Shown here piece after piece: positions 22,525-61,196 of a stretch of DNA of 64,000 nucleotides; within the stretch, counting starts at the first letter, position 1, and every line of letters starts with the position of its first letter. Where the stretch lies: assembly GCF_001742225.1 (NCBI RefSeq), contig NZ_CP017075.1:3192001-3256000 (forward strand), written 5' to 3'. Below the pieces are notes generated by a model. That model was not told the origin of the DNA. It searched no databases and was given only the letters and a program-made list of their open reading frames with translations. This DNA comes from Novosphingobium resinovorum. GTDB lineage: Bacteria; Pseudomonadota; Alphaproteobacteria; Sphingomonadales; Sphingomonadaceae. The translations under genes were made by a program, and so were the position numbers.

Positions 22525-22573
22525 ATGTTTCTCCGATGCGTGAATCACGCTGAGGTTTGCCGTGAAGTGAAGC

Positions 22574-23723: not shown

Positions 23724-23724
23724 G

Positions 23725-23735
23725 TTCCCGCTACC
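23725..23735 (+). other. Possible att-like match to the tRNA-Gly 3' region
   Basis: The 11 bases TTCCCGCTACC also occur in the T-arm/acceptor end of tRNA-Gly at 16273-16283. The match is short and could be chance. Its position, exactly where the truncated IS3 ends and chromosomal-type sequence resumes, makes it a candidate right-end scar. Confidence 0.2.
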
Positions 23736-23743
23736 TCTATGGC

Positions 23744-36235: not shown

Positions 36236-36492
36236 GTCTACCCCCACAGCCGACATCGAATGCCGGTCTGTCGAAAAGCTAACCCCATGCGGTACTTGCC
36301 GAAAATTCTCCCATTGGAGGGCGTGCTTATCCGTGGGGAGAAACCCGCATCGGCTCGTCGCGCGCACCTTGCGAATATTTCCCAGGGGGATTTTCGGCAG
36401 GCGGAATGGGCCTCTCCCTTCACCCTGCGCAGTTGCTCGGGAAGACCACGGCGCAGGGCGGCGGCATAATCGCGTGTGGGGAGGTACGCTCT
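36236..36492. promoter_or_regulatory. Divergent promoter region between the two EPS operons
   Basis: 257 bp separate the minus-strand wza-like operon from the plus-strand WecG-like gene. Both promoters must lie here. No confident -35/-10 or operator is visible by eye. Confidence 0.4.
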
Positions 36493-37392: not shown

Positions 37393-37419
37393 GCGCGGGG
37401 CATGATCCGGGGGCGAATC

Positions 37420-43413: not shown

Positions 43414-43675
43414 TGTGTCGCGCTTCCGGGCGTCACGCGTCCGGTCATCGTGCGCGCAAACGGCAGCCGACGATGTGAGCAGAGCCCGATGTGCACGCAG
43501 CAACTCTCCTTGAAAATCCGCAATGAAGCTTCGGGCTCAAGTCTATTGGCCGGGGCAGTCCGGTGTCGATCATGAGAACTTCCAAGGGAGTTTCAGGGCT
43601 GCCCGGCCCCTCGGTGGCTCCTTATCCTCGGCCCCGGTGAAGCTGGCGCCGTGGGGGCGCGAGAGGGGGAAGCGG

Positions 43676-44860
43676 ATGGATGTGCTTGCGCTCGCCGATC
43701 GCATGGCGCTGGGCTCTGCATGGTGGATGGCGGTCGCGGCGGGGTTGCCGACGGCGATGCTGGCGCTCGAATGCCTCGTCGGTGCACGGCGTGGACCTTC
43801 GGTGGAGAGCGGGGAGGCGCCGTCCTTCATCGTCGTCATGCCCGCCCACGACGAAGCCGCCGGGATCGAAGCTAGCGTGCGCGCGGCTCTGGCGCAGCTG
43901 CGTGGCGACGACGAACTGCTGGTGGTCGCCGACAACTGTTCCGACGATACGGCGGCAAGAGCACGCGCGCTGGGCGCGACGGTGATCGAACGCCGCGACC
44001 CCGACCTTCGCGGCAAGGGCCATGCGCTGGACTACGCCCGTGCCTTCATCGCCGAGCATCGTCCGGACTGCGGCGCGGTAATCGTGCTCGATGCCGATTG
44101 CCGGGCGATGCCGGGCTCCCTGACGGCGCTGGCGGAGACGGCGGCGCGGCGCGATGCCGCCGTGCAGGGCATCTTCCTGCTTGCCGCCCCGCGCGATGCG
44201 GGCGCGGTCGTGCGGGTTTCCAGCTTCGCCTTCCTCGTCAAGAACCTCGTGCGGCTGCAGGGGCTGGCCCGCCTGTCCGGCATGGCGCTGCTGCAGGGTT
44301 CGGGCATGGCCTTTCCGCGCGCGATGTACTTGGAAATGCGCTGGCCCGGCGGCTCTCTGGTCGAGGACCTGGAGATGGGTCTCGACCTGCTGCTCGCGGG
44401 CAGGCGCGTGGTCGTCGAGCCCGGCGCCCGCATCCTGAGCGCCACCAGTTCGGTCGAGGGCACGGGCAGCCAGCGCCGCCGCTGGGAGCATGGGATGATG
44501 CAGACCGCCTGGCGCTACGTTCCCAGACTGCTGGCACGCGCGGTACGGCGCCCGGCGCTGGCGGTGGTGGCGCTGGACCTCATGGTGCCGCCGACCGTGC
44601 TGCTGGCGCTTTGCTCGGCGGCCGCTCTGGGGATCGTGCTCGCGTTGGCGGGACCGACGGCGCCGTTCCTGACCTTGCTGGCGGCTCAGGTCGCGGCGGC
44701 GCTCGGCGTGTCGCTCGCATGGTGGCATCACGGGCGCGACGCGCTGCCGTGGTCGTCCTTGCGCGAACTGCCGGGCTACTTCGTCTGGAAGCTGCCGCTG
44801 ATCGCCCAGTTCGTGACCCGGCGCGAGCGGGAATGGACCCGCACGGAGCGTTTACCGTGA
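43676..44860 (+). CDS. Membrane glycosyltransferase family 2 (cellulose-synthase-like)
   Basis: A 394-residue processive-type GT2: IVVMPAHDEAAGIEASVRAAL, VLDADCRAM (DxD), SLVEDLEMGLDLL (ED) and QRRRW (QxxRW). It has an N-terminal helix and C-terminal helices (LALCSAAALGIVLALAG). It probably builds or extends a polysaccharide or lipid-linked sugar. GAGGGGGA precedes the ATG. Its stop overlaps the next start. Confidence 0.88.
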   Translation: MDVLALADRMALGSAWWMAVAAGLPTAMLALECLVGARRGPSVESGEAPSFIVVMPAHDEAAGIEASVRAALAQLRGDDELLVVADNCSDDTAARARALGATVIERRDPDLRGKGHALDYARAFIAEHRPDCGAVIVLDADCRAMPGSLTALAETAARRDAAVQGIFLLAAPRDAGAVVRVSSFAFLVKNLVRLQGLARLSGMALLQGSGMAFPRAMYLEMRWPGGSLVEDLEMGLDLLLAGRRVVVEPGARILSATSSVEGTGSQRRRWEHGMMQTAWRYVPRLLARAVRRPALAVVALDLMVPPTVLLALCSAAALGIVLALAGPTAPFLTLLAAQVAAALGVSLAWWHHGRDALPWSSLRELPGYFVWKLPLIAQFVTRREREWTRTERLP

Positions 44861-45783
44861 CGCCAGTAGGCTTCGTCATCATCGGCCGCAACGAAGGCGC
44901 GCGCCTGACCTTGTGCATCGACAGCGTCATGCGGACCGGACAGCGCGTGGTCTACGTAGATTCCGGCTCGACCGACGGCAGCGTGGAGCGGGTCAGGGCA
45001 CGGGGGCTGCCGGTGGTCGAACTCGACCCCGCCGCGCCCTTCACTGCCGCACGGGCGCGCAACGCCGGGCTGCAGTGGCATCTCGACAACGACCCGCAAC
45101 TGGAACTCGTCCACTTCATCGACGGCGACTGCGAACTGATTCCCGGCTGGCTCGAAAAGGCGCGGACCGCGCTGCTGGCCGATAGCGGGCTGGCTGCCGT
45201 CTGCGGCCGCCGGCGCGAGAGGGCTCCCGACGCCAGCCGCTACAACCGGCTGTGCGAGGCCGAGTGGAACACGCCGATCGGCCTTGCCGAAAGCGTCGGC
45301 GGCGACGCCCTTTTCCGCGTCGCGGCGCTGCGCCAGGTCAACGGCTACGACGAGACCCTGATCGCCGGGGAGGAGCCGGACATGTGCCATCGCATGCGGC
45401 GGCGCGGCTGGCTCATTCGCCGGATCGAGGGCGACATGACCATCCACGACGCGGCGATGATGCGCTTTGGCCAGTGGTGGCAGCGCAACCGACGCAGCGG
45501 CTATGCGACGGCGGAGGCACTGGCGATGCGCGGCGCGCAGGACCCTGAAGCGGGGCGCGACTTGCGCCGCAAGGTCCTGAGCAACGTGGTCTGGTCGCTG
45601 CCGCCGCTATGGCTGCTCTGGCCCGTGCTCTGGCTGCGCATCCGGGCGCGCAAGGACCCGCTTCAGGCGACCTGGCTGATCCTGGGCAAGTTGCCGCATC
45701 TGCAGGGCCAGATCGATTACTGGCGCCGCCGCAAGTCCCGGCACATCACGGCGCGGCCCGCCCGTCTGATCGAGTATAAGTAA
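44857..45783 (+). CDS. Glycosyltransferase family 2
   Basis: A 308-residue GT-A enzyme with FVIIGRNEGARLTLCIDS, YVDSGSTDGS and FIDGDCELIPGWLEKA (DxD). A late WSLPPLWLLWPVLWL helix may bind the membrane. The GTG start overlaps the previous stop (GTGA) with GGAG eight bases upstream; an in-frame ATG at 44833 is less well placed. It directly precedes the NRPS gene, 132 bp away. Confidence 0.88.
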   Translation: MTPVGFVIIGRNEGARLTLCIDSVMRTGQRVVYVDSGSTDGSVERVRARGLPVVELDPAAPFTAARARNAGLQWHLDNDPQLELVHFIDGDCELIPGWLEKARTALLADSGLAAVCGRRRERAPDASRYNRLCEAEWNTPIGLAESVGGDALFRVAALRQVNGYDETLIAGEEPDMCHRMRRRGWLIRRIEGDMTIHDAAMMRFGQWWQRNRRSGYATAEALAMRGAQDPEAGRDLRRKVLSNVVWSLPPLWLLWPVLWLRIRARKDPLQATWLILGKLPHLQGQIDYWRRRKSRHITARPARLIEYK

Positions 45784-45915
45784 TTCGCTCCCTAAAACAC
45801 CCAAGTAACCATCCATGGTGAAAACAGGGGCGGGGTTTGGGACATAGTTTTCCAAATTCAGCCCCAATACAGTCGGTATCGACTTGGGGGAAATCATTCA
45901 GGCGTGGGGCATCAC
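45784..45915. promoter_or_regulatory. Upstream region of the NRPS-PKS operon
   Basis: 132 bp of comparatively AT-rich sequence carrying CCCCAA (45862-45867) and TTGGGG (45884-45889) as an interrupted palindrome, with ATAC/GTAT inside. It could hold the promoter and an operator for the LuxR-type regulators downstream. No clear -35/-10 pair is seen. Confidence 0.35.
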
Positions 45916-48900
45916 ATGGCGTCTTTCGACGACTTCACCGGCAACGGGCAATCGCCTGTTGGTTCGGACATGAGCAGCATTCTCATCGGCAATGAAACCC
46001 TGCTCGCGGAATGCGGCAGGCTGCTCCTCGATCGCGGGCACCGGATCGCCGCCGTCGCCGCGGCGCCGATGTCTCCCGCCGCCGACTGGGCGCGCCGTCA
46101 CGGCATTGCGCTGTTCGAGAAACCGCGCGCCCTGTTGGCGGCCGAAATCGGCAGCGTTGACTACGTCTTCAGCATCTCCAACCTCGCCGTCCTTCCGGCC
46201 GAAGTTCTGGCGCTGGCTTCGCGCGCGGCGATCAACTTCCATGACGGGCCGCTGCCCGAACTGGCAGGCCTCAACACCCCGGTCTGGGCGCTGCTGGACG
46301 GAGCGCCGCGCCACGGCGTGACCTGGCACCTGATGACCGGCGCGGTGGACGAAGGCGCCATCCTCGCCGCCGAACGCTTCGACATCGCCAAAGAGGAAAC
46401 CGCGCTGTCGCTCAACACCCGCTGCTTCGAGGCGGGCCTGCGCTGCTTCGAAGGGCTCGTCGCCGATCTGGGCGGCGCGGTCGCAGCGGCCGTCCGGCAG
46501 GACCGCGCGCCCGATCGCATGGTCGGCCGCGCCGACCGCCCGCAGGCGGCCGCCACCATCGATTGGAGCCGCTCGGCCGAGGAGATCGCCCGCTTCGTCC
46601 GCGCGCTCGACTTCGGCGCTTACGCGAACCCGATGGGCGCTCCAAAGGCGCTCTTGGACGAGCATCTGTTGCTGGTACAGCAGGTCACGCCGCTCGCCAG
46701 TGCATCGGGCCGCGCACCGGGCACTATCCTCGTCTCCGGCCCGACACCTGTGGTCGCGACCGGTGATCTGGACATGCGGATCGATCGCCTCGCCACGCTT
46801 TCGGGCGAAGTGTTGAGTGGTGCGCAGGTCGGTGAACTGCTCATCGGGGCGGGCGGATTCACCGTGATCGACGATACGCGCCGTGATCAGTTGGACGGCC
46901 TCGATGCCGCCGCCGGACGCTACGAGGCATGGTGGCGCCGCCGACTGCAGCAGCGCGAGAGCCTGCAACTGCCGCAGTTCACTCCGCGCGTCGGTGACGG
47001 GCCTGCGCAGCCCTTCGTCCTTGACCGCGCCTTGCCGCAGGGGTTGGGTACCGGGGAGGCCTTGGCCGCTCTGGTCGCATGGCTGGCGCGCGCTGCAGAC
47101 CGCGCGAGTGTCGAGATCGGGTACTGCGACTGTGTCAGCCGCGCGCGACTGGACGATGTGGCGGGCTGGTTCGCGCCGGAAATGCCGCTCAAGGTTGCGG
47201 TCGATTTCGGCGCTCCCATCGCCGCCTTGCGCGATACGCTGGAGCGCGAAGTGGCCGGGATGCACCGCCGCGTGGCCATCTCCGCCGACCTGATCGCTCG
47301 CAGCCCGGAACTGCGCGGGCGGACCGGCTTCGACCACCCTGTCAGCATACAGGTCGTGAAGCGCCTCGACGAAGCGCGCGCCAGCGATGCCGTACTCGAC
47401 ATCGCCGTCTGCGCCTCCGAAGGCACGCTGCGTTGGACTTGCGACGGCACCCGTCTCGCCCGCGCCGATGCCGAGGACCTTGTGCGCGGCTTCGAGGCGA
47501 TGTGCGCGGGTGCCTCCGATGCGCCGGTCGGCAGCCTGTCGCTGCTCGAGCCCGAGGAACATGCGCGGATCGTCGGCGCCTGGAATGCGACCGAAGGCCC
47601 GTTCCTCACCGGCCCCGCCTGGTATCACCATTTCGCCGAACAGGCGGCGCGCACGCCGGAAAAGCCGGCGGTGACCGCCCTCGGTACCTCGCTGACTTAT
47701 GCCGAACTGGACGCGCTCTCCAACCGTATCGCCCGCGACCTCGCCGCACGCGGCGTAGGGCCTGAGGTTCTCGTCGGGCTGCACCTGTCGCGCTCTGTCG
47801 AGATGCTCGCCTGCCTTATCGGCGTGCACAAGGCGGGGGGTGCCTACGTGCCGCTCGATCCGTCCTATCCGCGAGATCGCATCGCGCACATGGTGGCGGA
47901 TTCGGGTCTCGGCCTGATCCTCAGCGAGACCGCTCTGGCGGGCGATCTGCCCCGGACTGAGGCGTCGATCCTGCACGTCGATACCATGCGCGAGGTCTTC
48001 GCCGCGTGCCCGTCCGATCCGTTCGACGGCGGCGCGGAAGGCGTGAACCTGGCCTACATGATCTACACCTCCGGCTCGACCGGTTTGCCCAAAGGCGTCA
48101 TGGTCGAGCACCGTAACCTGCTGAATTTCTACGCGGGAATGGACCGCAAGATCGCGCCGGACGGGACGTGGCTGGCGGTCACCAGCCTCAGCTTCGACAT
48201 CTCCACGCTGGAACTGATGTGGCCGCTGATGCACGGCTACCACATCGTCATCGCCAGCGAGCGCGAAGTGCGCGGCGATGTGCCGGAAGTGGCGGCGGTG
48301 GATGCGCGGCGGGTCGGTTTCAGCCTGTTCTACTTCGCCAGTTCCAGCGCGGGCAGCGCGGCCGAGCAGTACAACCTCCTGCTGGAAGGCGCCCGCTTCG
48401 CCGATGCCGAGGGCTTCGAGGCGATCTGGACGCCGGAGCGACATTTCCATGACTTTGGAGGACCTTACCCGAATCCCGCCGTCGCCGCAGCGGCGATCGC
48501 GGCGATCACGTCGCGGGTGCAGATCCGTGCCGGCAGCGTGATCGGGACCTTGCACCATCCCCTTCGCATCGCCGAGGAGTGGGCGCTGGTCGACAACTTG
48601 TCCGGCGGGCGCGTGGGGATTGCTTTCGCCTCCGGCTGGCAGCCGGACGATTTCGTCCTGAATCCAGTGGCTTATGCCGATCGTGCGGGCGTTCTCAAGC
48701 GGTGTGTCGAGGATGTCCGGGGCCTGTGGCGGGGCGAGGCGCGGGCCTATCCGGGGCCGCTGGGGCACGATGTTTCGGTGCGCACGTACCCGCGTCCGGT
48801 CCAGCCGGAGCTGCCGGTCTGGATAACTTCTGCTGGAAATTCAGAGACTTTCCGCGAGGCAGGGCGGGTCGGCGCCAATGTGCTGACGCACCTGCTGGGG

Positions 48901-50586
48901 CAGTCGATCGAGGAGGTGGCGACCAAGATCGCTGCCTATCGTAGCGCCTGGCACGAGGCCGGGCATTCGGGAGAAGGGCGCATCACCTTGATGTTGCACA
49001 CTTTTCTTGGAGAAAGCGAAGATGCGGTGCGTGCGGCCGTCAAGCCTGCGCTCATCGAGTACCTGCGCACCTCGACCAATCTGCTCAAGCAGTACGCCTG
49101 GTCGTTCCCGGCTTTCAAGACGCCGCAAGGTGCTGAAAGACTGGAACTTTCCGACATTTCCGAGGAGGAGACCGACGCGCTGCTCGACCATGCCTTCGAG
49201 CGCTACTTCGAGACCAGCGGCTTGTTCGGCACGCCTGAGGACAACGTCGCACTGGTCCACCGCCTGTCGGCGATCGGCGTCGACGAGATCGGCTGCCTCG
49301 TCGATTTTGGCGTGGATTCCCAGACGGTTATCGAACATCTGCCGCAAATCGCGCGTTTGCGCACACTGGCACTCAACGGCACTCAACAGGACCATTACGC
49401 CGCAGAACGCCAGCTGCACGACCTGATGGCGCGCCACGGGGTGACGCACCTGCAGTGTACGCCGTCCCTGCTTCAGGTGCTCGCAAGCGACCCGGCTGCC
49501 CGCCCACGCCTGCAGGCACTCCAGCACCTCATGGTCGGCGGCGAGGCGTTCCCGCCGCAGCTGGCGACCGACATGACCGGCCTCGTTTCCGGCACCGTCA
49601 TGAACATGTACGGGCCGACCGAGACGACCGTGTGGTCCGCCGTCCACGCGCTGGATGAAGGGGGCGCGCCGCCGCTCGGCAGGCCGCTGCTCAACCAGCA
49701 GATCTACATCCTCGACCGGCGGCTGCAGCCGGTGCGGCAGGGCACGCCGGGCGAGCTGGTCATCGGCGGCGCGGGGGTCGTGCGCGGCTACCACGACCGG
49801 CCCGAGCTGACCGCCGAGCGCTTCGTTGCCGACCCGTTCAATCCGCGCGCGCGCGTCTACCGCACCGGCGACCTCGCCCGCCAGCGCGAGGACGGCACGC
49901 TCGAATTCCTCGGCCGCCTCGACCATCAGGTGAAGATCCGCGGCTACCGCATCGAACTGGGCGAGATCGAGGCCGCGCTCACCGCGCACCCGGAGGTTAC
50001 CGAGGCCGTCGTGGTCGCCCGCAAGGAAGGCGCCGCCACCCGCCTCGTCGCCTACCTCGCCCCGCGCACCGGCGCCCCGGCGGTCGAGGACTTGCGCGCG
50101 CATCTGCGGGAGCGGCTGCCCGACTTCATGGTCCCCGGCAACTTCGTCCTGCTCGAAGCCCTGCCGCGCACGCCCAACGGCAAGATCGACCGCAATGCCC
50201 TGCCCGAGCCGGTCAGCGTGGTCGTCGACAACATGGATGACAGCGCCGCCCCGGCGACCGGCGTGGAGGCCCAGATCCAGGCGATCTGGTGCGACGTGCT
50301 CAAGCTGCCGCAAGTGCGCCTGACCGAGAACTTCTTCGACATCGGCGGTCACTCGCTGCTCGCCATCCAGGTCCACCGCCGCCTGTCCGCCGAACTGACG
50401 GGAGCCGGACTAGCTCAGGCGGTCGCGCTGACCGACATCTTCCGCTTCCCGACCATCGCCGCGCTCGGCGCGCACTTGTCGGGCGGGCAGGACGATGCCG
50501 CCGCGCTCGCCGGTCAGAACCGCGCCGAAATGCGCAATCAGGCACGTAATCGCCGCGCGACCGCCCGCATCGGCGTGAGGGTCTAA
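45916..50586 (+). CDS. NRPS: formyltransferase - partial C - A (with inserted luciferase-like monooxygenase) - carrier
   Basis: About 1556 residues. Residues ~20-330 are a Formyl_trans_N-like domain with the Asn-x-His (INFHDGPLP) and Asp (GAVDEGAIL) catalytic residues. Residues ~370-560 resemble the second half of a condensation domain and no HHxxxDG is visible. The A domain begins near 570 (A3 YTSGSTGLPKG, A4 FDISTLELMW). It is then interrupted at ~800-1145 by a MupA/Atu3671-type FMN luciferase-like monooxygenase (FSLFYFASSSAG, IWTPERHFHDFGGPYPNPA). It resumes with A5 MYGPTETT, A7 YRTGDLA and A10 NGKIDR. A carrier ends it (FFDIGGHSLLAIQ, Ser near 1480). GTG 45904 is an alternative start. Asp in A4 suggests an amino-acid substrate. 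Confidence 0.92.
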   Translation: MASFDDFTGNGQSPVGSDMSSILIGNETLLAECGRLLLDRGHRIAAVAAAPMSPAADWARRHGIALFEKPRALLAAEIGSVDYVFSISNLAVLPAEVLALASRAAINFHDGPLPELAGLNTPVWALLDGAPRHGVTWHLMTGAVDEGAILAAERFDIAKEETALSLNTRCFEAGLRCFEGLVADLGGAVAAAVRQDRAPDRMVGRADRPQAAATIDWSRSAEEIARFVRALDFGAYANPMGAPKALLDEHLLLVQQVTPLASASGRAPGTILVSGPTPVVATGDLDMRIDRLATLSGEVLSGAQVGELLIGAGGFTVIDDTRRDQLDGLDAAAGRYEAWWRRRLQQRESLQLPQFTPRVGDGPAQPFVLDRALPQGLGTGEALAALVAWLARAADRASVEIGYCDCVSRARLDDVAGWFAPEMPLKVAVDFGAPIAALRDTLEREVAGMHRRVAISADLIARSPELRGRTGFDHPVSIQVVKRLDEARASDAVLDIAVCASEGTLRWTCDGTRLARADAEDLVRGFEAMCAGASDAPVGSLSLLEPEEHARIVGAWNATEGPFLTGPAWYHHFAEQAARTPEKPAVTALGTSLTYAELDALSNRIARDLAARGVGPEVLVGLHLSRSVEMLACLIGVHKAGGAYVPLDPSYPRDRIAHMVADSGLGLILSETALAGDLPRTEASILHVDTMREVFAACPSDPFDGGAEGVNLAYMIYTSGSTGLPKGVMVEHRNLLNFYAGMDRKIAPDGTWLAVTSLSFDISTLELMWPLMHGYHIVIASEREVRGDVPEVAAVDARRVGFSLFYFASSSAGSAAEQYNLLLEGARFADAEGFEAIWTPERHFHDFGGPYPNPAVAAAAIAAITSRVQIRAGSVIGTLHHPLRIAEEWALVDNLSGGRVGIAFASGWQPDDFVLNPVAYADRAGVLKRCVEDVRGLWRGEARAYPGPLGHDVSVRTYPRPVQPELPVWITSAGNSETFREAGRVGANVLTHLLGQSIEEVATKIAAYRSAWHEAGHSGEGRITLMLHTFLGESEDAVRAAVKPALIEYLRTSTNLLKQYAWSFPAFKTPQGAERLELSDISEEETDALLDHAFERYFETSGLFGTPEDNVALVHRLSAIGVDEIGCLVDFGVDSQTVIEHLPQIARLRTLALNGTQQDHYAAERQLHDLMARHGVTHLQCTPSLLQVLASDPAARPRLQALQHLMVGGEAFPPQLATDMTGLVSGTVMNMYGPTETTVWSAVHALDEGGAPPLGRPLLNQQIYILDRRLQPVRQGTPGELVIGGAGVVRGYHDRPELTAERFVADPFNPRARVYRTGDLARQREDGTLEFLGRLDHQVKIRGYRIELGEIEAALTAHPEVTEAVVVARKEGAATRLVAYLAPRTGAPAVEDLRAHLRERLPDFMVPGNFVLLEALPRTPNGKIDRNALPEPVSVVVDNMDDSAAPATGVEAQIQAIWCDVLKLPQVRLTENFFDIGGHSLLAIQVHRRLSAELTGAGLAQAVALTDIFRFPTIAALGAHLSGGQDDAAALAGQNRAEMRNQARNRRATARIGVRV

Positions 50587-50589
50587 ACC

Positions 50590-53500
50590 ATGCACCAGCC
50601 CATCGAAGAACCGTTCGACCCCTCGCTCGACACCTCCAGCGCGGTGGCCATCGTCGGCATGGCGTGCCGCTTCGCCAGGGCGCGCGGCCCGGAGGAATTC
50701 TGGTCGCTCCTGAGCGAAGGCCGCGACGGGATCGAGACTTATTCCGAGGAGGAACTGCTCGCCGCCGGAGTCTCGCCCGCCCTGCTGCGCAACCCCGACT
50801 ACGTGCGCCGCGGCGCGCCGCTCGCGGACATGGAGTGCTTCGACGCCGCGCTGTTCGGCCTGTCGAAGCGCGATGCTGCAGTCATGGACCCGCAGCATCG
50901 CCACTTCCTCGAATGCTCGTGGGAGGCGCTGGAGGACGCAGGCCATACGCCGCAGGGCTTTGCCGAGGGAACAGGCGGTGTGATCGGCGTCTTCGCGGGA
51001 TCGGGCCACAACGCCTACATGCCCTACAACCTGCTCACCAACGGCAAGCTGGTGAACGAGGTCGGCCTGTTCCTGCTGCGCCATACCAGCAATGACAAGG
51101 ACTTCCTGACGACGCGGGTGTCGTACCTGTTCGACCTCAAGGGGCCGAGCATCAACGTCCAGACCGCGTGCTCGACCTCGCTCGTCTCGATCCACATGGC
51201 GGCGCAGAGCCTGCTGTCGGGCGAGTGCGACATGGCGCTCGCGGGCGGAACCTCGATCGAGCTGCCGCACCGCCGGGGCTACCTCTACGAGCAGGGCGAG
51301 ATCCTTTCTCCCGACGGCCTGTGCCGTCCCTTCGACGCGGACTCCAAGGGCACCGTGTTCGGCAGCGGCGTCGCCGTGGTGGCGCTGCGCCGACTGGAGG
51401 ATGCCATTGCCGCCGGCGACCACATCCATGCGGTGATCCGGGGCTCGGCGATCAACAACGACGGCGCGGGCAAGGTCGGCTACCTCGCCCCCAGCGTGGA
51501 CGGGCAGGCGGCGGTGATCGCCGAGGCCCTCGCGGTGTCCGGCATCGCGCCTTCGGCCATCGACTATGTCGAGGCGCACGGCACCGGCACGCCGATCGGC
51601 GACCCGATCGAAGTGGCGGCGCTGCGGCAGGTCTTCGCCCAGTCTGGCGCAAGGCCCGAGCCCTGCGCGCTGGGTTCGGTGAAGGCCAACATCGGTCACA
51701 CCGACACCGCCGCAGGCGCGGCGGGCGTCATCAAGGTGGCGCTGGCGATGCGCCACGCCGAGCTTCCCCCTGTTCCGCATTTCGGGGCCGCAAATCCCGA
51801 ATGCGCGCTGGATACTGGCCTTTTCCGCGTACAGGCCACCAGCGCGCCCTGGCTCCGGCGCGACGATCGCCCCCGTCGCGCCGGGGTCAGCTCACTCGGC
51901 GTGGGGGGCACCAATGCCCACATCGTCATGGAGGAAGCGCCGCCGCGCGCGCCCAGCGGGCCGAGCCGCCGTCGCCAGCTGCTGATGACCTCGGGCGCCA
52001 CGCAAGGTGCGGCGGATGCCAATGCTGCGGCGCTGGCGCAGTATTTCGCCGGAGATAGCAACAAACAACCAGCAACCACCTCCGTCATTGCGAGCGAAGC
52101 GAAGCAATCCAGGGCGGTTGACGCCGCCTCTGGATTGCCGCGCCCCTTCGGGGCTCGCAATGACGAAGCGGGGAGGGGGAACGCAGCGAACACGGGCGAC
52201 GAAGCCCGGCATCTCGCCGACGCGGCCTTCACCCTCAACACCGGCCGCCGCGCGCTGGCATGGCGTCGGTTCGCGGTGGGTCAGGACGGGGCTGAAGCCG
52301 CCGCTGCGCTCGAAACCGCAAGTCGCCAGTCGTCCGCGAAGCAGGTTTGCGTGCCCGGCCGCCCGGTCGCCTTCCAGTTCTGCGGCGGCGGGCTGCAGCA
52401 TGTCGATATGGCGCGTGATCTCTACCAGACCGAGGCCGCGTTCCGTGCCGACGTGGACAAGGGCCTCGCCGTGCTTGCGCGCATCGGCGTGCCGGACCTC
52501 AAGCGCTGGCTGTTCCCGGTCGAGGCCGACCGCGATGCTGCGGCCGCCGAGCTTGAACGTCCCTCCAACGCGCTGCCTGCGCTGTTCATCGTCCAGACCG
52601 CGCTCGCCCGCTTCTGGATGGCGCTGGGGATCGCGCCGGCCGCGATGATCGGCCACAGCTGCGGCGAGTATGCTGCGGCGCATGTTGCGGGCGTGGTGGA
52701 CCTCGAAGCGGGCCTGCGCATCGTCCACGCGCGCGGCCGCCTGTTCGAGACGACCGCGAAAGGCGGCATGATCAGCGTGCCGCTTTCCGAGGCGGAACTT
52801 GCGCCGATGCTGCCGCCCGGGGTTTCGATCGCGACGATCAACGCCCCGTCCCTGTGCGTCGTATCGGGCGCGGCGGACGCGGTGGCGGCCTTCCTCGACG
52901 ACTTGCGCGCGCGTGAGATCGAAGCGCAGCCGATCCCCATCGAGGTCGCCGCGCATTCGGCGATGCTCGACCCGATCCTGCCTGAATTCCGCGCCCTGCT
53001 GAAGACGATCACGCTGCGCGCGCCGCAGATCCCCTTCGCCTCGAACCTGACCGGGCGCTGGGTGAGCGCGGCGGAGGCGACCGATCCCGAATACTGGGTG
53101 CGGCACTTGCGTGAGCCGGTGCGCTATACCGACGGCCTCGAATGCCTGCTGGGCGAGGCGGACCAGGTGCTTCTGGAAGTCGGCCCCGGCCGCGCCATGA
53201 CCAGCCTCGCCCGCCAGCATCCGGCGCGCAAGGCCAGCCAGCCGGTGGTCGCCTCGATGCGCCATGCGGGCGAGGACGTTGCCGACGACCAGCGGTTGCT
53301 CGAAGCGCTCGGCGAACTCTGGGCGCTGGGCGTCGAGATCGACTGGACCGCATGGTGGGGTGACGAGCGCCGCCTGCGCGTGCCGCTGCCGACTTATCGC
53401 TTTGAGCGCGAACGGCACTGGATCGAGCCGGGTGCGAGCCTGCACACGGCGGCCTCCGGGGGCGATGCCGATACCCGCCTCGCGCTGGGCGACTGGGGCT

Positions 53501-56500
53501 ACGAGCCGGTGTGGAGCCGCGAGGATCTGGTGGCGGGAGAAGCCGTGGGCGGGGCTGCAGGTGGTCCGGCTCTGGTGCTCTGCGATGACGACGGGTTCGG
53601 CGCCAGCCTTGCCGCGCGTCTGCGCAAGGCGGGGGTGGAGACCGTAACCGTCCACGCGGCGACGCGCTTTTCCGCCAGTGCTGCAGGCGCCTTCGCGCTG
53701 CGGCCCGACATGCGCGAGGACTGGGCGCGGCTGTTCGTCCGGCTGGGCCGAGACGGGCGGATGCCGCGTCAGGTCTATCATTGCTGGCTGGCGGGCGGGG
53801 TAGCCGCGCCGAGGCGCCGGGATGCGGCGATCCTCGACCGGGGGCTGCATGCGCTGATCGCGATGGTGCCCGAACTCGCCGCGCAAGTGGACGAGGGGCC
53901 GGTGGTCGTCGCGCTCGTCACCGACAAGGCGCAGCGCGTGGCGGGCGATGCGGACCTCATGCCGCTCAAGGCCACGGCGATCGGCGCCGCGCGCACCGTC
54001 TCGGCCGAGTATCCGGCACTCGAGGTGCGCGCGATCGACATCGATCTTGCCGCCGTGAACGCCGCCGACCTTGCCGACGCGGTGATCGCCGAGGTTTCCG
54101 GCCCCCGTGCTTCCGGTGACGTCGCCTTGCGCGCGGGCGAGCGCTGGACGCTCGCCTACCGCAACGCGCGCGAGCCGCTGGCCGAGGGACAGCCGACATG
54201 GCTGCGCGAGGGCGGTGTCTATCTCGTCACCGGCGGGCTGGGCGGGCTGGGCCTGTCCATCGCCGACCACCTTGCGCGCGGATACAAGGCGCGCCTCGCT
54301 CTCGTCGGGCGCAGCGCCTTACCGCCGCGCGGGGAGTGGGCGCAGCGCCTCGCAAGCGGCGACCTGCCGCTGGGCGTCGAGGACAAGGTGCGCAAGCTGC
54401 TCGCGCTCGAAGCGGCGGGGGCGGACGTGGAACTGATCGTCGCCGACGTCGCCGATGCGAAGGCGCTGGCGAAGGGCGTGCGCAAGGCGGTTTCCCGCTT
54501 CGGCCCGATCGACGGCGTGTTCCATGCCGCCGGCGCGCTCGACGACGGGCTGATCGAGACCCGCAGCCGCAAGGCGGTGGACGCCGTGCTGCGACCCAAG
54601 ATCGCGGGCACCCTGGCGCTGGAGGAGGCGCTCAAGGGTCAGGCGCCGGGCTTCCTGCTGCTGTTCTCCTCGGTCAGCGCCTTCGCGGGGCTGCCGGGGC
54701 AGGTGGACTATGCCGCCGCCAATGCCTTCCTCGACGCCTATGCGCAATCGCGGCGCAGCGATGCGCGCACGCGGGTGCAGTCGGTCGGCTGGAGCCAGTG
54801 GGCCGAAGTCGGCATGGCCGCCGCGCTCGGCGGGCGCGAGGGCGGAGCGCCTGAAGGAGGGATGGGCGCGCTGCCCGACGACCTCGGGGCAGGGAAGGCG
54901 ATCGAGCATCCCTTCCTCGAACGGCTCTGCACCATTTCCGACGATGAGTTTGTGGTCACCGGCATCCTAACCCCCGTGCGGCATTGGGTGCTCGACGAGC
55001 ACCGAGTCGTTGATGCCGGTGCGCTGTTGCCCGGGACATCTTTCCTGGAGATGTCTCGGGCAGCAGTTGCGCTGGTCCACCAGGGCGCGCTGGAACTGTC
55101 CGACTTCACCTTCCTCAAGCCCTTCGCGGTGCCGGATGGAGAGGCGCGCGCGCTGCGGGTCCATGTCCGTCGGCGGGGCGCGAGCGGGTGGAAGGTCACC
55201 ATCCTCGGCCGCCCCGAACAGGGCGGCGAATGGACCGAGCACGCACACGGCGTGGTGCGCCCGCACACGCTGACGCCGCTGCGCTCCACGCTCGACCTCG
55301 GCGCCATCGCCGAGCGCTGCAGCCCCGCGATCTGCGGCGGCGCCGACCAGCGGATGATGAACTTCGGCCCCCGCTGGGATACGCTCGTGCAGGCGCTTGC
55401 GTCCCCTCACGGCGAGGCGCTGCTCCAGCTGGAACTCCCCGCGCCCTACGCCGCCGAGGCCGTGGCGATGGGCCTGCACCCGGCGCTACTCGACTTCGCG
55501 ACGGCGGGCGCACAGACGCTGATTCCCGGGCGCGACCGGAGCCGTGATTTCTACGCGCCGTTCACCTATCGCCGCTTCCTGCTCCACGCCCCGCTGCCCG
55601 CGCTCGCGTGGAGCCACATCCGGCTCGTCTCTTCCGATGGCCAGACGGCGGTGTTCAACGTGACGATCACCGACGCCGACGGCCTCGTCGTCGCCGAAGT
55701 GCGCGAATTCACGATGATGCACATGGGCGACGCGGCGCTGCTCGCCCGCGCCTCCGCGACGCCGCCGCGCGCCGCGAAGGCCGCCACCGGCGAGATCGCG
55801 GCAAGCTCCGAGGGCATCCTGCCCGAAGAGGGCACCGAAGTGATCGCGCGCCTGCTCTCGGGCCGGTGCCGCCCGCATACGGTGATCTCGCCCTACGACC
55901 TTGCGCCGGTGCTCGCGCGCCTGCGCAGCCCGCCGCGCGCCGCACGCCGCGAGGCTGCCGGGGGCGATCCGGCGGATCTGCCCGCGACCCCGGCCGAACA
56001 GGTCATCGCCGACTTGTGGTGCGACCTGCTGGGCATGGAGGCGGTCGGGCGGCACGACAACTTCTTCGATCTTGGCGGCCATTCGCTGCTGGCGGTGCAG
56101 TTCACCAACCGACTGCGCAAGAAGACCGGCCGCACCCTGCCGCTCGCGGCGATGCTCGGCCAGCCGACCGTCGCGGGGCTTGCCGCCGTGATCGACCCGG
56201 ACAGCCGCGCGCCCGATATGCCCGCCGCCGCCGAGGCGGATGCACCGGGTCTTGGTCTGGGTCAGGGCATCGTCACCATCCGTAAGGGCGGCCCGGCCAC
56301 GCCGCTGTTCCTGATCCACGACGGGCTCGGCGAGACGCTGCTCTATCGCGGCCTGGCGCTGCGACTGGATGGCGCGCGGCCGGTGCTGGGGATCGAGCCG
56401 CTGCGCAAGGCGGACGGCAACTATGCCCACACCCGCATCGACGAGATGGCGACGTACTACATCGGCAAGGTGCGCAGCGTTCAGCCGCAAGGCCCGTACC

Positions 56501-57201
56501 TCCTCGCCGGGCTCTGCGCCGGGGGCGTGATCGCCTTCGAGATGGCGCAGCAACTTCAGGCGATGGGCGAGCAGGTGGCCTTCGTCGGCGTGATCGACGC
56601 CGCCGACGTCGAGGCGCGCAAGCACCGCTTCGGCGAGAGCCGCGCCCGCCTTGGCCGCGTGCTCGGTGTGTTGAAGTCCGGCAATCCGCTGCAGATGCTG
56701 CCCGACCTCTGCCGCCGCGCCTGGAACCTCGCTCGCTGGGAGATCGAGTCGCGGATGCGGAGGGCCGAGGATCGACGAACCGTCGATGCCCTGCGCGCTG
56801 CCGATGCCGGTGACGCGGCGATGGAAGCGGATGCTCCGGCGATCCCGTTCCTCAGGCTCTATGAAGCCGCACACAAGGAACATCGGCCGATCGGCATCCT
56901 GCAATCGACCAGCGTGGCGCTGTTCAAGGCGTCCAACGACACCGACCTTGCCGACGATACCCCTTACCGCGCGATCTACCGGGACTTTGCGCTGGGCTGG
57001 GGCAAGCGGGTGCGCGAGGACATCGTGATCCTCGACATTCCCGGCGGCCACATGTCGAACCTGCAGGAGCCGCACGTCGCCACGCTCGCCCCGCTGTTCC
57101 AGAACGCGCTCGACGATGCCGTGTCCGAGCACGGGCCGTGGAGCCGCGCCGCGGTGATGCAGGAAGAGCGGTTCGACTTCTTCGAGGAGGCGGCGGAATG
57201 A
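50590..57201 (+). CDS. Type I PKS: KS-AT-KR-DH-like-carrier-TE
   Basis: A 2203-residue protein. KS has TACSTS with Cys194, VEAHGTGTP and GHTDTAAGAAG. AT has GHSCGEY near 690. KR (~1207-1420) has TGGLGGLG, an LDD motif (ALDDGLIE) that predicts B-type reduction, and Ser/Tyr/Asn residues. A DH-fold region (~1435-1715) has an irregular HRVVDAGALLP motif and HPALLDFA. The carrier Ser1832 lies in FFDLGGHSLLAVQ. TE (~1897-2167) has GLCAGG with Cys1976 in place of Ser. KR precedes DH, which is not the common order. Residues ~498-525 are the translation of a REP-like repeat. Three bases separate it from the NRPS stop, so they form one line. Confidence 0.93.
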   Translation: MHQPIEEPFDPSLDTSSAVAIVGMACRFARARGPEEFWSLLSEGRDGIETYSEEELLAAGVSPALLRNPDYVRRGAPLADMECFDAALFGLSKRDAAVMDPQHRHFLECSWEALEDAGHTPQGFAEGTGGVIGVFAGSGHNAYMPYNLLTNGKLVNEVGLFLLRHTSNDKDFLTTRVSYLFDLKGPSINVQTACSTSLVSIHMAAQSLLSGECDMALAGGTSIELPHRRGYLYEQGEILSPDGLCRPFDADSKGTVFGSGVAVVALRRLEDAIAAGDHIHAVIRGSAINNDGAGKVGYLAPSVDGQAAVIAEALAVSGIAPSAIDYVEAHGTGTPIGDPIEVAALRQVFAQSGARPEPCALGSVKANIGHTDTAAGAAGVIKVALAMRHAELPPVPHFGAANPECALDTGLFRVQATSAPWLRRDDRPRRAGVSSLGVGGTNAHIVMEEAPPRAPSGPSRRRQLLMTSGATQGAADANAAALAQYFAGDSNKQPATTSVIASEAKQSRAVDAASGLPRPFGARNDEAGRGNAANTGDEARHLADAAFTLNTGRRALAWRRFAVGQDGAEAAAALETASRQSSAKQVCVPGRPVAFQFCGGGLQHVDMARDLYQTEAAFRADVDKGLAVLARIGVPDLKRWLFPVEADRDAAAAELERPSNALPALFIVQTALARFWMALGIAPAAMIGHSCGEYAAAHVAGVVDLEAGLRIVHARGRLFETTAKGGMISVPLSEAELAPMLPPGVSIATINAPSLCVVSGAADAVAAFLDDLRAREIEAQPIPIEVAAHSAMLDPILPEFRALLKTITLRAPQIPFASNLTGRWVSAAEATDPEYWVRHLREPVRYTDGLECLLGEADQVLLEVGPGRAMTSLARQHPARKASQPVVASMRHAGEDVADDQRLLEALGELWALGVEIDWTAWWGDERRLRVPLPTYRFERERHWIEPGASLHTAASGGDADTRLALGDWGYEPVWSREDLVAGEAVGGAAGGPALVLCDDDGFGASLAARLRKAGVETVTVHAATRFSASAAGAFALRPDMREDWARLFVRLGRDGRMPRQVYHCWLAGGVAAPRRRDAAILDRGLHALIAMVPELAAQVDEGPVVVALVTDKAQRVAGDADLMPLKATAIGAARTVSAEYPALEVRAIDIDLAAVNAADLADAVIAEVSGPRASGDVALRAGERWTLAYRNAREPLAEGQPTWLREGGVYLVTGGLGGLGLSIADHLARGYKARLALVGRSALPPRGEWAQRLASGDLPLGVEDKVRKLLALEAAGADVELIVADVADAKALAKGVRKAVSRFGPIDGVFHAAGALDDGLIETRSRKAVDAVLRPKIAGTLALEEALKGQAPGFLLLFSSVSAFAGLPGQVDYAAANAFLDAYAQSRRSDARTRVQSVGWSQWAEVGMAAALGGREGGAPEGGMGALPDDLGAGKAIEHPFLERLCTISDDEFVVTGILTPVRHWVLDEHRVVDAGALLPGTSFLEMSRAAVALVHQGALELSDFTFLKPFAVPDGEARALRVHVRRRGASGWKVTILGRPEQGGEWTEHAHGVVRPHTLTPLRSTLDLGAIAERCSPAICGGADQRMMNFGPRWDTLVQALASPHGEALLQLELPAPYAAEAVAMGLHPALLDFATAGAQTLIPGRDRSRDFYAPFTYRRFLLHAPLPALAWSHIRLVSSDGQTAVFNVTITDADGLVVAEVREFTMMHMGDAALLARASATPPRAAKAATGEIAASSEGILPEEGTEVIARLLSGRCRPHTVISPYDLAPVLARLRSPPRAARREAAGGDPADLPATPAEQVIADLWCDLLGMEAVGRHDNFFDLGGHSLLAVQFTNRLRKKTGRTLPLAAMLGQPTVAGLAAVIDPDSRAPDMPAAAEADAPGLGLGQGIVTIRKGGPATPLFLIHDGLGETLLYRGLALRLDGARPVLGIEPLRKADGNYAHTRIDEMATYYIGKVRSVQPQGPYLLAGLCAGGVIAFEMAQQLQAMGEQVAFVGVIDAADVEARKHRFGESRARLGRVLGVLKSGNPLQMLPDLCRRAWNLARWEIESRMRRAEDRRTVDALRAADAGDAAMEADAPAIPFLRLYEAAHKEHRPIGILQSTSVALFKASNDTDLADDTPYRAIYRDFALGWGKRVREDIVILDIPGGHMSNLQEPHVATLAPLFQNALDDAVSEHGPWSRAAVMQEERFDFFEEAAE
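52083..52165. repeat. REP-like palindrome inside the PKS coding sequence
   Basis: Perfect 13-bp terminal arms CGTCATTGCGAGC (52083-52095) and complement (52153-52165) enclose 9-bp arms GCAATCCAG/CTGGATTGC. It is translated in frame as VIASEAKQS...GARND between the KS and AT domains. The same family occurs at 5013-5048 and near 30964. Confidence 0.9.
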
Positions 57202-58184
57202 GCGGGCGCGCAGTTCGCCGGGGGCTCGACTTCCCGATCGCCGTCGTCATCGTCAACTACCGCACGGCGGCGCTGGTGACGGAATGTCTCGCCAGCCTCG
57301 ATGTCGAGCGGCGCTCCGGCGCGGGACTGCGGGTGATCGTGGTGGACAACGATTCGCGTGATGGCTCGGCCGAATCGCTCGAAGCCGCGATCGTGCGGGA
57401 AGGCTGGGACTGGGCTACGCTGGTGCGTTCGCCGACCAACGGCGGGTTCGGGACGGGATGCAACCTCGGCATCGAGCACGCCCTTCGCGACGGCGAGGCC
57501 CGCGCGGTCTGGCTGCTCAATCCCGATACGCGCGTGATGCCCGGCGCGGCCAATGCACTGGCCGCCTTCATGGCGGCAACGCCGCGCGCGGGCGTCGTGG
57601 GTACGGCGCTGCTGCTCGCCGATGGCGCGCCGTGGCCTTACGCCTTCCGCTTCCCTACCGTACTCGGCGAACTGGAGCGGGCCTTGCGCTGGGGGCCGGC
57701 CTCGCGCCTGCTGGCGAGGCACAGGACGGCCCGGCGGATGGACGGGCGCGCCGAGCAGATCGACTGGGTCTCCGGCGCCAGCATGGCCGTGCGCCGCGAG
57801 GCGCTGCAGCAAGGGCTTCGCTTCGACGAGGACTATTTCCTCTACTACGAGGAGACCGACTTCTGCCGCGAGGCGAAAACGCGCGGGTGGCAGTGCTGGT
57901 ATGCGCCGCGTCCGACGGTGCTGCACGTCGCCGGGCAAAGCACCGGCGTCACCGGCGAGGACGCTCATGCGCGGCGGGTCCCGGGTTACTGGTTCGCATC
58001 GCGGCGGCGCTATTTCCGCAAGAACCATGGCTGGGCTTATGCGCTGGCGGCCGATCTCGCCTGGATCGCGGGGCATTGCTTCTACCTCGTCAAGCAGCAG
58101 CTGCGCCGCAAGCCGCGTGAGGATCCGCCGCGGCTGCTCAGCGACTTTCTCTGGTTCGGGATGCTCGCGCCCCAACGGCGTTGA
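57198..58184 (+). CDS. Glycosyltransferase family 2 (rhamnosyltransferase-like)
   Basis: A 328-residue GT-A enzyme resembling WbbL-type rhamnosyltransferases: VVIVNYRTAALVTECLASL, VVDNDSRDGS, LLNPDTRVMPGA, WVSGASMAVRREAL and DEDYFLYYEETDFC. A C-terminal hydrophobic segment may be peripheral-membrane. Its ATG overlaps the PKS stop (ATGA), so it is translated with the assembly line. It could glycosylate the NRPS-PKS product, or use rmlCBDA-derived rhamnose. Confidence 0.9.
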   Translation: MSGRAVRRGLDFPIAVVIVNYRTAALVTECLASLDVERRSGAGLRVIVVDNDSRDGSAESLEAAIVREGWDWATLVRSPTNGGFGTGCNLGIEHALRDGEARAVWLLNPDTRVMPGAANALAAFMAATPRAGVVGTALLLADGAPWPYAFRFPTVLGELERALRWGPASRLLARHRTARRMDGRAEQIDWVSGASMAVRREALQQGLRFDEDYFLYYEETDFCREAKTRGWQCWYAPRPTVLHVAGQSTGVTGEDAHARRVPGYWFASRRRYFRKNHGWAYALAADLAWIAGHCFYLVKQQLRRKPREDPPRLLSDFLWFGMLAPQRR

Positions 58185-58188: not shown

Positions 58189-58875
58189 ATGGGAGAGGAT
58201 CTCGTCGCGACACTCGCCCGGCACGGCATCATCGGTGAGCGGATCGCGGCGCCGTTTCCGCTTTGGCTGGTGCGGGCGGATCCGGACAACGCGGGCGACG
58301 TTTCCGCGCCCCTGAGTGACGAGGAACGCGCGCGCGCAGATCGGTTCAGGATTTGTGCCCTCGCGCGGCGCTACCTGACGGCGCATGGCGCGCTGCGCCT
58401 GCTGATCGAGGCCGAGTTCGGCATTGCGGCATCGCGGCAGCGCTATGGCGTGAACGATTTCGGCAAGCCGCATCTTCGTGATGTGCCGCATGTGCAGTGC
58501 AACATGAGCTACAGCGGAGAGGTCGCGCTCGTCGCTTTCGCGCGGCACGTGGAGATCGGGATCGACATGGAGCGGGTGCGCTCTGTCGACGACGCGGCCG
58601 GACTGGCTGCGATGTATTATACCGATCGCGAATTAATGCAGTTGAATGAAAGGCCGGATGCGTTTTCCGACCATGCATTCCTGACGGTCTGGGTCAGGAA
58701 GGAAGCCTGTTCTAAGGCACTCGGAAAGGGTCTTTCAATTGCCCCGTCATCGTTCGAGTGCGGTGTGGGCTGCGGCCCGAGGAACGTGCTTGTCGATGGA
58801 GAAGTCGTAGAAAGCGATGTTGTCGACCCGAAGGGCGGTTTGCTGATGTCTTGGGCCATGCGAGGCCAGTGTTAG
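58189..58875 (+). CDS. 4'-phosphopantetheinyl transferase (Sfp type)
   Basis: The 228-residue enzyme transfers phosphopantetheine from CoA to carrier-domain serines. It has the Mg-binding IGIDMERVR motif (D-x-E) and the W-x-x-K-E-A motif (VWVRKEACSKALGKGL), with N-terminal NMSYSGEVAL. It lies directly after the glycosyltransferase gene and would activate both carrier domains upstream. The start is ATG 58189, four bases after the preceding stop. Confidence 0.93.
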   Translation: MGEDLVATLARHGIIGERIAAPFPLWLVRADPDNAGDVSAPLSDEERARADRFRICALARRYLTAHGALRLLIEAEFGIAASRQRYGVNDFGKPHLRDVPHVQCNMSYSGEVALVAFARHVEIGIDMERVRSVDDAAGLAAMYYTDRELMQLNERPDAFSDHAFLTVWVRKEACSKALGKGLSIAPSSFECGVGCGPRNVLVDGEVVESDVVDPKGGLLMSWAMRGQC

Positions 58876-60617: not shown

Positions 60618-61196
60618 ATGATCGTCAAGACCTATGAGATTTCCGGTCCCTGCGCCTTCGTGCCCAGCCGGATCGCCGACACGCGCGGCTGGTTCGCCGA
60701 AACCTTCCGGCACGACCTGTTCGCCCGGCACTGCGGCGATGCGGCCTTCGTGCAGGACAACGAGTCCTGCAGCCTTGCCGTCGGCACCGTGCGGGGCCTG
60801 CACTACCAGCGCCCGCCGCATGCACAGGGCAAGCTGGTGCGCTGCACCGCGGGCGCGATCATGGACGTGGCGGTGGACATCCGCGCCGGCTCTCCCACAT
60901 ACGGCCACTGGATCGCCGAGACGCTGACGCCCGACAACGGCACCCAGCTGTGGATACCGCCCGGCTTCGCGCACGGGTTCTGCACGCTGCTGCCCGACAC
61001 CGTCGTCGCCTACAAGGTGACCGACTACTACTGCGCCGAATGCGACCTCGGCATGCGCTGGAACGACCCGGCTCTGGCGATCGCCTGGCCCGATCTGGCC
61101 AATCCCGCCAGCCTCTCGCCCAAGGACCGCGCGCAGCCGTTGCTGTGCGAGCGGCCCGCGCACTTCTTCTTCGAGGAACTTGCCGCATGCGCGTGA
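60618..61196 (+). CDS. rfbC: dTDP-4-dehydrorhamnose 3,5-epimerase
   Basis: The 192-residue RmlC epimerises C3 and C5 of dTDP-4-keto-6-deoxyglucose. Hallmarks are [34 protein letters not shown] (with the catalytic His), [18 protein letters not shown] and [13 protein letters not shown]. First gene of the rml operon; its stop overlaps the rmlB start. Confidence 0.97.

Follow-up and report, generated by a model that had tools for sequence, protein, structure and literature searches.

What does a two-gene assembly line that joins a nonribosomal peptide synthetase (NRPS) to a polyketide synthase (PKS) make in Novosphingobium resinovorum, and for what? The two genes lie in a stretch of 64,000 nucleotides of contig NZ_CP017075.1 (assembly GCF_001742225.1, positions 3,192,001 to 3,256,000), hereafter called the window. 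We found that the two enzymes form a recurrent pair whose partners are seldom apart, and that in the window this pair sits, to judge from the protein families matched around it, in a Wzx/Wzy exopolysaccharide (EPS) locus that the original prediction for this DNA had not recognised. The architecture, the catalytic residues, the near-constant pairing and the co-location with EPS genes were read directly from the window and its relatives, and from them we infer a chemistry and a point of attachment: the pair would be one short assembly line dedicated to the surrounding EPS locus, and its four-carbon (C4) acyl product would end on the EPS. We regard the chances that this proposal is right or wrong as evenly balanced.

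Both genes are on the + strand and are separated by 3 bp, the NRPS open reading frame (ORF) running from 45904 to 50586 (1560 aa from a GTG) and the PKS ORF from 50590 to 57201 (2203 aa from an ATG). Because the Met encoded at 45916 is an invariant column in 20 out of 20 aligned NRPS relatives, ATG 45916, where the original prediction had begun the gene, is a likelier NRPS start than GTG 45904. A chance frame or artefact was ruled out by the length of the two ORFs, their coding-type GC content by codon position and their many homologues; 120 NRPS homologues listed of 1397 matches, the window's own included, each cover 90% or more of the query with an identity of 50% or higher. Domains were called with Pfam and NCBIfam on hits above cut-off, and residues were read from alignments of 81 NRPS relatives and 66 PKS relatives, in 61 of which the thioesterase nucleophile was readable. 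Catalytic residues are intact in both alignments, which rules out a reading in which the domains are dead. The original prediction had proposed a formyltransferase (FT), a partial condensation (C) domain, an adenylation (A) domain split by a luciferase-like monooxygenase (LLM) and a carrier (T) domain, followed 3 bp later by ketosynthase (KS), acyltransferase (AT), ketoreductase (KR), dehydratase (DH), T and thioesterase (TE) domains, and Pfam and NCBIfam agree with this order. On the NRPS, Pfam matched in turn Formyl_trans_N/C, AMP-binding (two stretches), Bac_luciferase, AMP-binding_C and PP-binding:

45904..50586, + strand: NRPS, FT - C-terminal lobe of C - A(N) - LLM - A(C) - T (Pfam, NCBIfam)
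45976..46863, + strand: formyltransferase domain, aa 25-320 (Formyl_trans_N/C; N111, H113, D149)
46909..47583, + strand: condensation-domain remnant, C-terminal lobe, aa 336-560 (profile match; no HHxxxDG)
47632..48318, + strand: N-terminal part of the A domain, reaching past core A4 (FDIS, aa 764-767) (Pfam, alignment)
48319..49362, + strand: luciferase-like flavin mononucleotide (FMN) monooxygenase, aa 806-1153, between A4 and A5 (TIGR04020)
49372..50208, + strand: C-terminal part of the A domain, beginning ahead of A5 (NMYGPTE, aa 1234-1240) and reaching A10 (Pfam, alignment)
50251..50493, + strand: T (carrier) domain, S1484 (PF00550)

The formyltransferase call was borne out by the Formyl_trans_N profile, and the loss of catalytic residues that would have spoken against it was not seen on alignment: N111, H113 and D149, which we take to be the catalytic residues, are invariant in 81/81 NRPS relatives. 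Its assignment to the linear-gramicidin type is doubtful by sequence. In sequence searches against solved proteins the closest relatives are ArnA (E 8.5e-14) and Fmt, whereas the FT of LgrA matches at E 1.8e-6 over 110 aa, and the domain carries an Fmt/ArnA-type C-terminal domain (PF02911). The FT thus appears nearer to the ArnA/Fmt transformylases, and membership in the linear-gramicidin family as such was set aside on these scores. An AlphaFold2 model of the FT and the C-lobe reached a mean predicted local distance difference test score (pLDDT) of 88, and the 50 Foldseek matches shown for it are formyltransferases and their kin, with ArnA and Fmt on top; the C-lobe assignment therefore rests on sequence, namely on a 15-row FT and C-lobe profile that matches the later part of the C domains in McyB, Txo1, Txo2, PvdL and EntF. 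The HHxxxDG motif occurs in 0/81 NRPS relatives, and the view of this region as a partial C domain was upheld. The LLM, for which MupA/Atu3671-type kinship had been claimed, matches TIGR04020 with 481.5 bits (cut-off 244.45) over model positions 1-341; its nearest solved relative is the PuwE monooxygenase (6ket, 338.8 bits), and 56 of its 348 positions are invariant in 81 sequences. The A-domain lysine and the T-domain serine are each kept in 81/81.

The PKS gave, in order, the Pfam families ketoacyl-synt, Acyl_transf_1, KR, PKS_DH_N with PS-DH, PP-binding and Thioesterase:

50590..57201, + strand: type I PKS, 2203 aa, KS-AT-(psi)KR-DH-T-TE (Pfam)
50632..51939, + strand: KS domain, C194, H330, H370 (Pfam, alignment)
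52083..52165, + strand: REP (repetitive extragenic palindrome)-like palindrome, in-frame insert in the KS-AT linker (alignment, hairpin prediction)
52357..53289, + strand: AT domain, S690, VAAHS specificity motif (Pfam, alignment)
53572..54084, + strand: structural half of the KR (PF21394; Pfam)
54202..54849, + strand: catalytic KR, K1337, S1361, Y1374, N1378, LDD motif (Pfam, alignment)
54898..55809, + strand: DH domain downstream of the KR, H1471, D1635 (PF21089 and PF14765)
55972..56199, + strand: T domain of the PKS, S1832 (Pfam)
56287..57084, + strand: thioesterase with Cys nucleophile, C1976, D2003, H2154 (Pfam, alignment)

This is a cis-AT type I PKS module in which KS, AT, KR, DH, T and TE are all present with their catalytic residues. 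The KS Cys and its two His are kept in 65/66 PKS relatives (one gap), the AT serine in 66/66 and the T-domain Ser in 62/66 (a gap in 4); in the KR the Lys is found in 66, the Ser in 66, the Tyr in 65 and the Asn in 62. The last Asp of the LDD-type KR motif, which we presume to be B-type, is invariant. As had been noticed, the KR (aa 1209-1406) precedes the DH (1440-1716), an order that differs from the canonical AT-DH-KR-T. The DH itself had been called DH-like; its catalytic His is retained in 65/66 relatives and its Asp in 63/66, so the domain is not merely DH-like. The Cys-type TE is indeed present in the window (motif AGLCAGG), but it is limited to one clade: among the 61 readable relatives the nucleophile is Cys in 8 and Ser in 53, and five more have a gap. 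The eight are the window and loci L029, L030, L032, L033, L035, L036 and L037, that is sphingomonads and Caldimonas, so the Cys TE is a feature of one clade within an otherwise conserved system. Position 1976 of the PKS, the TE nucleophile, offers a natural Ser/Cys comparison inside one conserved system.

The palindrome in the KS-AT linker is translated (VIASEAKQSR...FGARNDE) and is predicted to form an RNA hairpin of -58 kcal/mol. The same insert occurs in the N. resinovorum locus L030 and is not present in the eight other relatives compared. With up to 2 mismatches allowed, the genome contains 172 matches to its 30-base half, 90 in forward and 82 in reverse orientation.

To place the pair among its relatives, one genome per species was scanned: at least 584 stretches encode a relative of some part, and the best 80 became loci. 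With the window these make 81 loci; in 62 of them, the full loci, the NRPS is flanked on either side by 8 kb or more. The 80 come from sphingomonads, Burkholderiales, Rhodobacteraceae, Rhizobiales, Myxococcales, Planctomycetes, Gemmatimonadetes, Anaerolineae and others, and several are metagenome bins. A PKS is present in 58/62 full loci. Of 37 genomes of the genus, five have an LLM that scores above the cut-off, and it was in exactly these five that the full PKS was found. Among 289 genomes of the class an LLM was found in six, with the full PKS within 10 kb in five of these (G000, G082, G214, G312 and G343) and the LLM among other PKS genes in the sixth (G272); when the best candidates per genome were scored, the full PKS was not found in the other 283, and twelve gave partial matches. 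Of 61 genomes searched, a further one, G057 of the same order, has an LLM in a 785-aa frame without such a PKS. NRPS and PKS identities are correlated (r = 0.93 over 66 loci, 2145 pairs), to which common descent contributes too. The combination had been called unusual, and a reading as one unusual cluster is rejected: the NRPS and the PKS are a recurrent, near-constant pair.

Gene order varies between groups while the neighbouring company stays. The usual order is NRPS-PKS-glycosyltransferase (GT), with a 4'-phosphopantetheinyl transferase (PPTase) further on, in sphingomonads and Caldimonas, and PKS-GT-NRPS-PPTase in Rhodobacteraceae; in Rhizobiales the NRPS and PKS are on opposite strands, mostly divergent. 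In L045, an Anaerolineae bin, additional NRPS parts (A, C-T-TE, A-T) at 1593-9086 and 21715-24681 flank the pair, which may there belong to a longer assembly line.

The genes around the pair in the window are the following:

32080..32850, - strand: P-loop ATPase adjoining the chain-length gene (sub-threshold ParA/CbiA matches; we read it as the tyrosine-kinase half)
32875..34371, - strand: chain-length determinant, Wzz/Wzc type (PF02706, 26.9 bits, cut-off 25.5)
35519..36367, - strand: Wza-type polysaccharide export protein (PF02563, 67.5 bits)
36406..37392, + strand: WecG/TagA/CpsF glycosyltransferase (PF03808)
37402..38955, + strand: conserved protein 'GH37' (a label only; no Pfam or NCBIfam match)
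38799..40562, + strand: Wzy-type polymerase / O-antigen ligase family (PF04932, 41.4 bits, cut-off 31.7)
42037..43503, - strand: Wzx-type flippase (PF13440, 132 bits)
43523..44860, + strand: family 2 glycosyltransferase, EpsU-like (169 bits, cut-off 700)
44833..45783, + strand: family 2 glycosyltransferase upstream of the NRPS (scanned from 44863)
57198..58184, + strand: family 2 glycosyltransferase, its ATG overlapping the PKS stop (ATGA); ORF cluster in 38/81 loci
58189..58875, + strand: 4'-phosphopantetheinyl transferase, starting 4 bp after the glycosyltransferase gene
60950..62245, + strand: dTDP-glucose 4,6-dehydratase type, RmlB-like
62173..63162, + strand: RmlD-type reductase

PF13440, PF04932, PF02563, PF02706, PF03808 and PF00535 are thus all matched, which points to a Wzx/Wzy EPS locus. 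PPTase ORF clusters are represented in 45/81 loci, a count that leaves out the window's own gene, missed by the ORF picker. Members of the 'GH37' cluster, 275-986 aa long and in some cases truncated where the locus stops, occur in 29/81 loci. The window also encodes an AT3-SGNH acyltransferase, 18 kb away from the pair. A low-GC ORF (50/41/60% by codon position) of the AT3-SGNH acyltransferase type, ending early in the SGNH part, is found at 11184-15279 near a DDE transposase ORF.

Co-location with EPS genes was then followed through the relatives with six kinds of marker (Wzx, Wzc, WecG, Wzy, kinase and initiating sugar transferase) defined by ORF clusters. These clusters were named from the window's proteins or from one scanned member; the kinase label is our own reading, and for one of the two Wzy clusters the scanned member scores 26.7, short of the Pfam cut-off of 31.7. 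At least one marker is present in 48/62 full loci, and a marker and the PKS together in 47/62. Rhodobacteraceae show co-directional runs of Wzy-PKS-GT-NRPS-PPTase-SGNH. On three annotated plasmids (Ruegeria, Aminobacter and Paracoccus), hand-picked from sixteen plasmid records matching over 80% of the query, the pair is accompanied by glycosyltransferase genes and further genes for polysaccharides; in the Ruegeria stretch these include a sugar transferase and a deacetylase and no flippase. A flippase (PF13440) was found within 12 kb of the pair in 6/9 genomes (G000, G007, G025, G032, G082 and G312; not G029, G214 or G343). For comparison, 3/16 control genomes (G030, G008 and G337, two of them in this genus) have one at most 12 kb from a different type I PKS, the controls being all genus and class genomes searched that gave a partial PKS match. 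The flippase linkage of the pair hence exceeds that of other PKSs, modestly. G214 and G343 carry other polysaccharide signs, namely a 'GH37'-type gene with a sub-cut-off Wzy-like match, and a Wzz match. Two same-genus NRPS-PKS loci that lack the LLM, L120 (G030:C24) and L121 (G008:C2), lie about 1 kb from a Wzx-type flippase with a PPTase between.

A DUF4886/SGNH-like protein of about 311 aa has members in 22/81 loci (L074:17422-18357 and 21 others) and follows the PPTase in many Rhodobacteraceae loci. Its N-terminus is hydrophobic, it carries the motifs GHSL and DxIH, and it has no Pfam or NCBIfam match; its model (mean pLDDT 86) matches a DUF4886 protein at E 6e-7, and SGNH acyltransferases and esterases more weakly. 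From this structural likeness it is a candidate for moving or removing the acyl group in the loci where it is present.

As to what the pair would make, the code of the A domain is informative. Its positions were placed by alignment to the ten specificity positions of GrsA. The window reads DILQMGMVWK; the 81 relatives read DILQMGMIWK (37), DILQFGMIWK (15), DILQLGMIWK (13), DILQLGMVWK (6), DILQMGMVWK (5) and five singletons, so that DILQ[MLF]GM[IV]WK fits 76/81. Four glycine-activating domains with a monooxygenase (MOX) that cleaves the carbon backbone of glycine all carry DILQLGMIWK (PMC12283262), a code with which the window shares 8/10 positions and 13/81 relatives all ten. In myxothiazol and melithiazol the flavin monooxygenase sits between a4 and a5 (PMC10204066), the glycine is alpha-hydroxylated, the amide is lost and a glyoxyl thioester remains (PMC10204066, PMC11342130). 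Judged by its code, then, the predicted substrate is glycine, and because the A-LLM unit resembles these glycine-cleaving modules the product may not retain the formyl group. One amino acid extended by one ketide, as the original prediction had it, is supported as the minimal product; the code check adds glycine as the amino acid, and it is the perhaps N-formylated state of the product that comes into doubt.

The mechanism that we favour would begin with the split A domain activating glycine and loading it onto the NRPS carrier (T1). The FT would formylate the T1-bound glycine and so replace an upstream peptide donor, the C domain being reduced to its C-terminal lobe. By homology the LLM would then hydroxylate the glycine alpha carbon to give N-formyl-alpha-hydroxyglycyl-S-T1, a carbinolamide that would either persist or lose formamide to leave glyoxylyl-S-T1, as in myxothiazol and melithiazol. 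The KS would add one unit, probably malonyl, which the KR would reduce and the DH dehydrate; the resulting C4 thioester, enoyl or hydroxyacyl, would be oxidised at its C4. Finally the TE, with or without the coupled glycosyltransferase, would release or transfer the acyl group, whose destination would be the EPS repeat unit. Such a line could have arisen from an internal C-A-MOX-A-T module that lost half of its C domain and gained an FT, whereby glycyl-S-T would become an N-acylglycyl substrate for the MOX.

The fate of the formyl group divides the possible products. If N-formylation is sacrificial, the FT would provide the MOX with the smallest possible N-acylglycyl substrate, and hydroxylation would expel formamide and leave a glyoxylyl starter for the PKS, and the EPS would carry a 3-hydroxy-4-oxobutyryl or 4-oxocrotonyl group; we put this forward tentatively, as an outcome that is doubtful at present. 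Retention of the formyl group, with an N-formyl-(alpha-hydroxy)glycyl starter and a 4-formamido-C4 acid as product, in line with the original prediction, is a serious possibility that falls somewhat short of even: three NRPS products with an initiating formylation domain are N-formylated (PMC8949500) and solanimycin B retains its alpha-hydroxyglycine (PMC10204066), but the insertion site and the A code match the amide-losing glycine-MOX modules and not SolF, where the insertion is between a8 and a9. That the PKS works iteratively and builds a longer polyene acyl chain from the glycine-derived starter seems improbable. A KR before the DH and a single module with a TE, both seen here, do occur in some iterative synthases; the best solved matches, however, are 8xju, 7zma and CurL, and CurL is a modular, non-iterative PKS. 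Still further from likely, and in our view very improbable, is a role of the FT in formylating an amino sugar of the polysaccharide instead of carrier-bound glycine: the locus does make a polysaccharide, and ArnA and other sugar and tRNA formyltransferases are closer to the FT than LgrA is (E 8.5e-14 vs 1.8e-6), but the domain is fused to the NRPS in 81 loci and stands in place of the first half of the C domain.

The destination of the product can also be read differently. The pair could make a free exported small molecule (a signal, a metallophore or an antibiotic), with the EPS genes as mere neighbours or the flippase shared. This finds some footing in the other type I PKSs that lie near Wzx-type genes in 3/16 control genomes, in the scanned neighbours of L075 and L108, which are unrelated to polysaccharide, and in the additional NRPS modules near the pair in L045. 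We consider it unlikely, since in different Pseudomonadota orders the pair is inside co-directional EPS runs with a glycosyltransferase and a polymerase, its company remains similar when the internal gene order changes, and it also travels on plasmids with EPS clusters. Several observations nevertheless weigh against dedication of the pair to EPS. None of the acyltransferases in the window is linked to it, the 311-aa SGNH-like protein has no member in the window, and the FT is nearest to amino-sugar and tRNA formyltransferases. The PKS is not within reach in 4/62 full loci (L051, L054, L096 and L100). The loci with markers are nearly all from Pseudomonadota (L097, a Myxococcales bin, is an exception), and 14/62 full loci have no marker cluster. 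In six of these 14, with 1-3 neighbours scanned in each, four (L075, L108, L039 and L045) showed no polysaccharide genes, and L033 and L038 showed polysaccharide deacetylase, glycosyltransferase or AlgX-like genes. L094 (Aminobacter niigataensis) is markerless as well, and on a plasmid from this species genes for an O-antigen ligase, export and a flippase follow 6-12 kb beyond the NRPS; marker clusters can therefore miss EPS genes. The flippase comparison is a weak control (Fisher p 0.025, uncorrected for kinship). Lastly, N. resinovorum L030/G029 keeps the pair, the GT and the PPTase without Wzx or Wzy nearby. In that locus (L030 1-24665, G029:C7) a family 4 glycosyltransferase lies between the WecG and family 2 glycosyltransferase genes, in the place that 'GH37', Wzy and Wzx occupy in the window.

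Wzx/Wzy EPS loci share with the window their flippase, polymerase, export, chain-length and glycosyltransferase genes, and known EPS decorations use acetyl, pyruvyl, succinyl or hydroxybutyryl donors. The LgrA initiation module (FT-A-T) likewise has an N-terminal FT before A and T; the window differs in the LLM insertion, the condensation remnant, the PF02911-bearing FT and the hand-over to a PKS. For the glycine-MOX modules of myxothiazol (MtaG) and melithiazol (MelG), whose likeness was drawn from published descriptions, a complete upstream condensation domain would be expected, in place of which the window has the FT and the C-lobe only. As in the window, a flavin monooxygenase splits their glycine A domain between A4 and A5 (PMC10204066). 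In those systems the hydroxylated glycine is the last residue of the peptide and glyoxylate is set free by a TE, whereas the module of the window initiates and has a KS downstream. SolF of solanimycin also combines a glycine A domain with a flavin monooxygenase and yields alpha-hydroxyglycine, but in an internal module in which the hydroxyglycine is retained (PMC10204066). The LLM of PuwE (puwainaphycin) is of the same kind; it lies between PKS and NRPS modules and is thought to help form the 3-amino-2-hydroxy acyl chain (PMC4219810). By description alone FbnE of fabrubactin is also alike, a flavin monooxygenase proposed to make alpha-hydroxycarboxylates (PMC12971057). An EPS study in Actinoplanes was set aside as a precedent, its main text being without the words polyketide, nonribosomal, formyltransferase, adenylation and NRPS (PMC13390465). 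Among titles and abstract starts in the open-licence literature we found no description of the system or of an NRPS-PKS as an EPS donor, which does not prove absence. As far as these searches reach, the parts are known, while the fixed pairing, the initiation module that unites an FT with a glycine-MOX unit, and the residence in EPS loci are undescribed.

Taken at its proposed strength, the pair may make an unrecognised small chemical decoration for surface polysaccharides. Were the glyoxylyl route true, it would explain the lasting fusion of an FT, a glycine A domain and a MOX and would constitute a new generator of starter units; the aldehyde-bearing C4 group that sacrificial formylation would leave could let the EPS cross-link or bind amines. 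If the pair does decorate EPS, cryptic-looking NRPS/PKS clusters would be worth seeking in the matrix and not only in culture extract, and this would be, to our knowledge, the first NRPS-PKS dedicated to the decoration of a bacterial surface polysaccharide. For surface-polysaccharide loci in several Pseudomonadota orders, and perhaps in other groups too, a natural-product assembly line would then have become a standard component.

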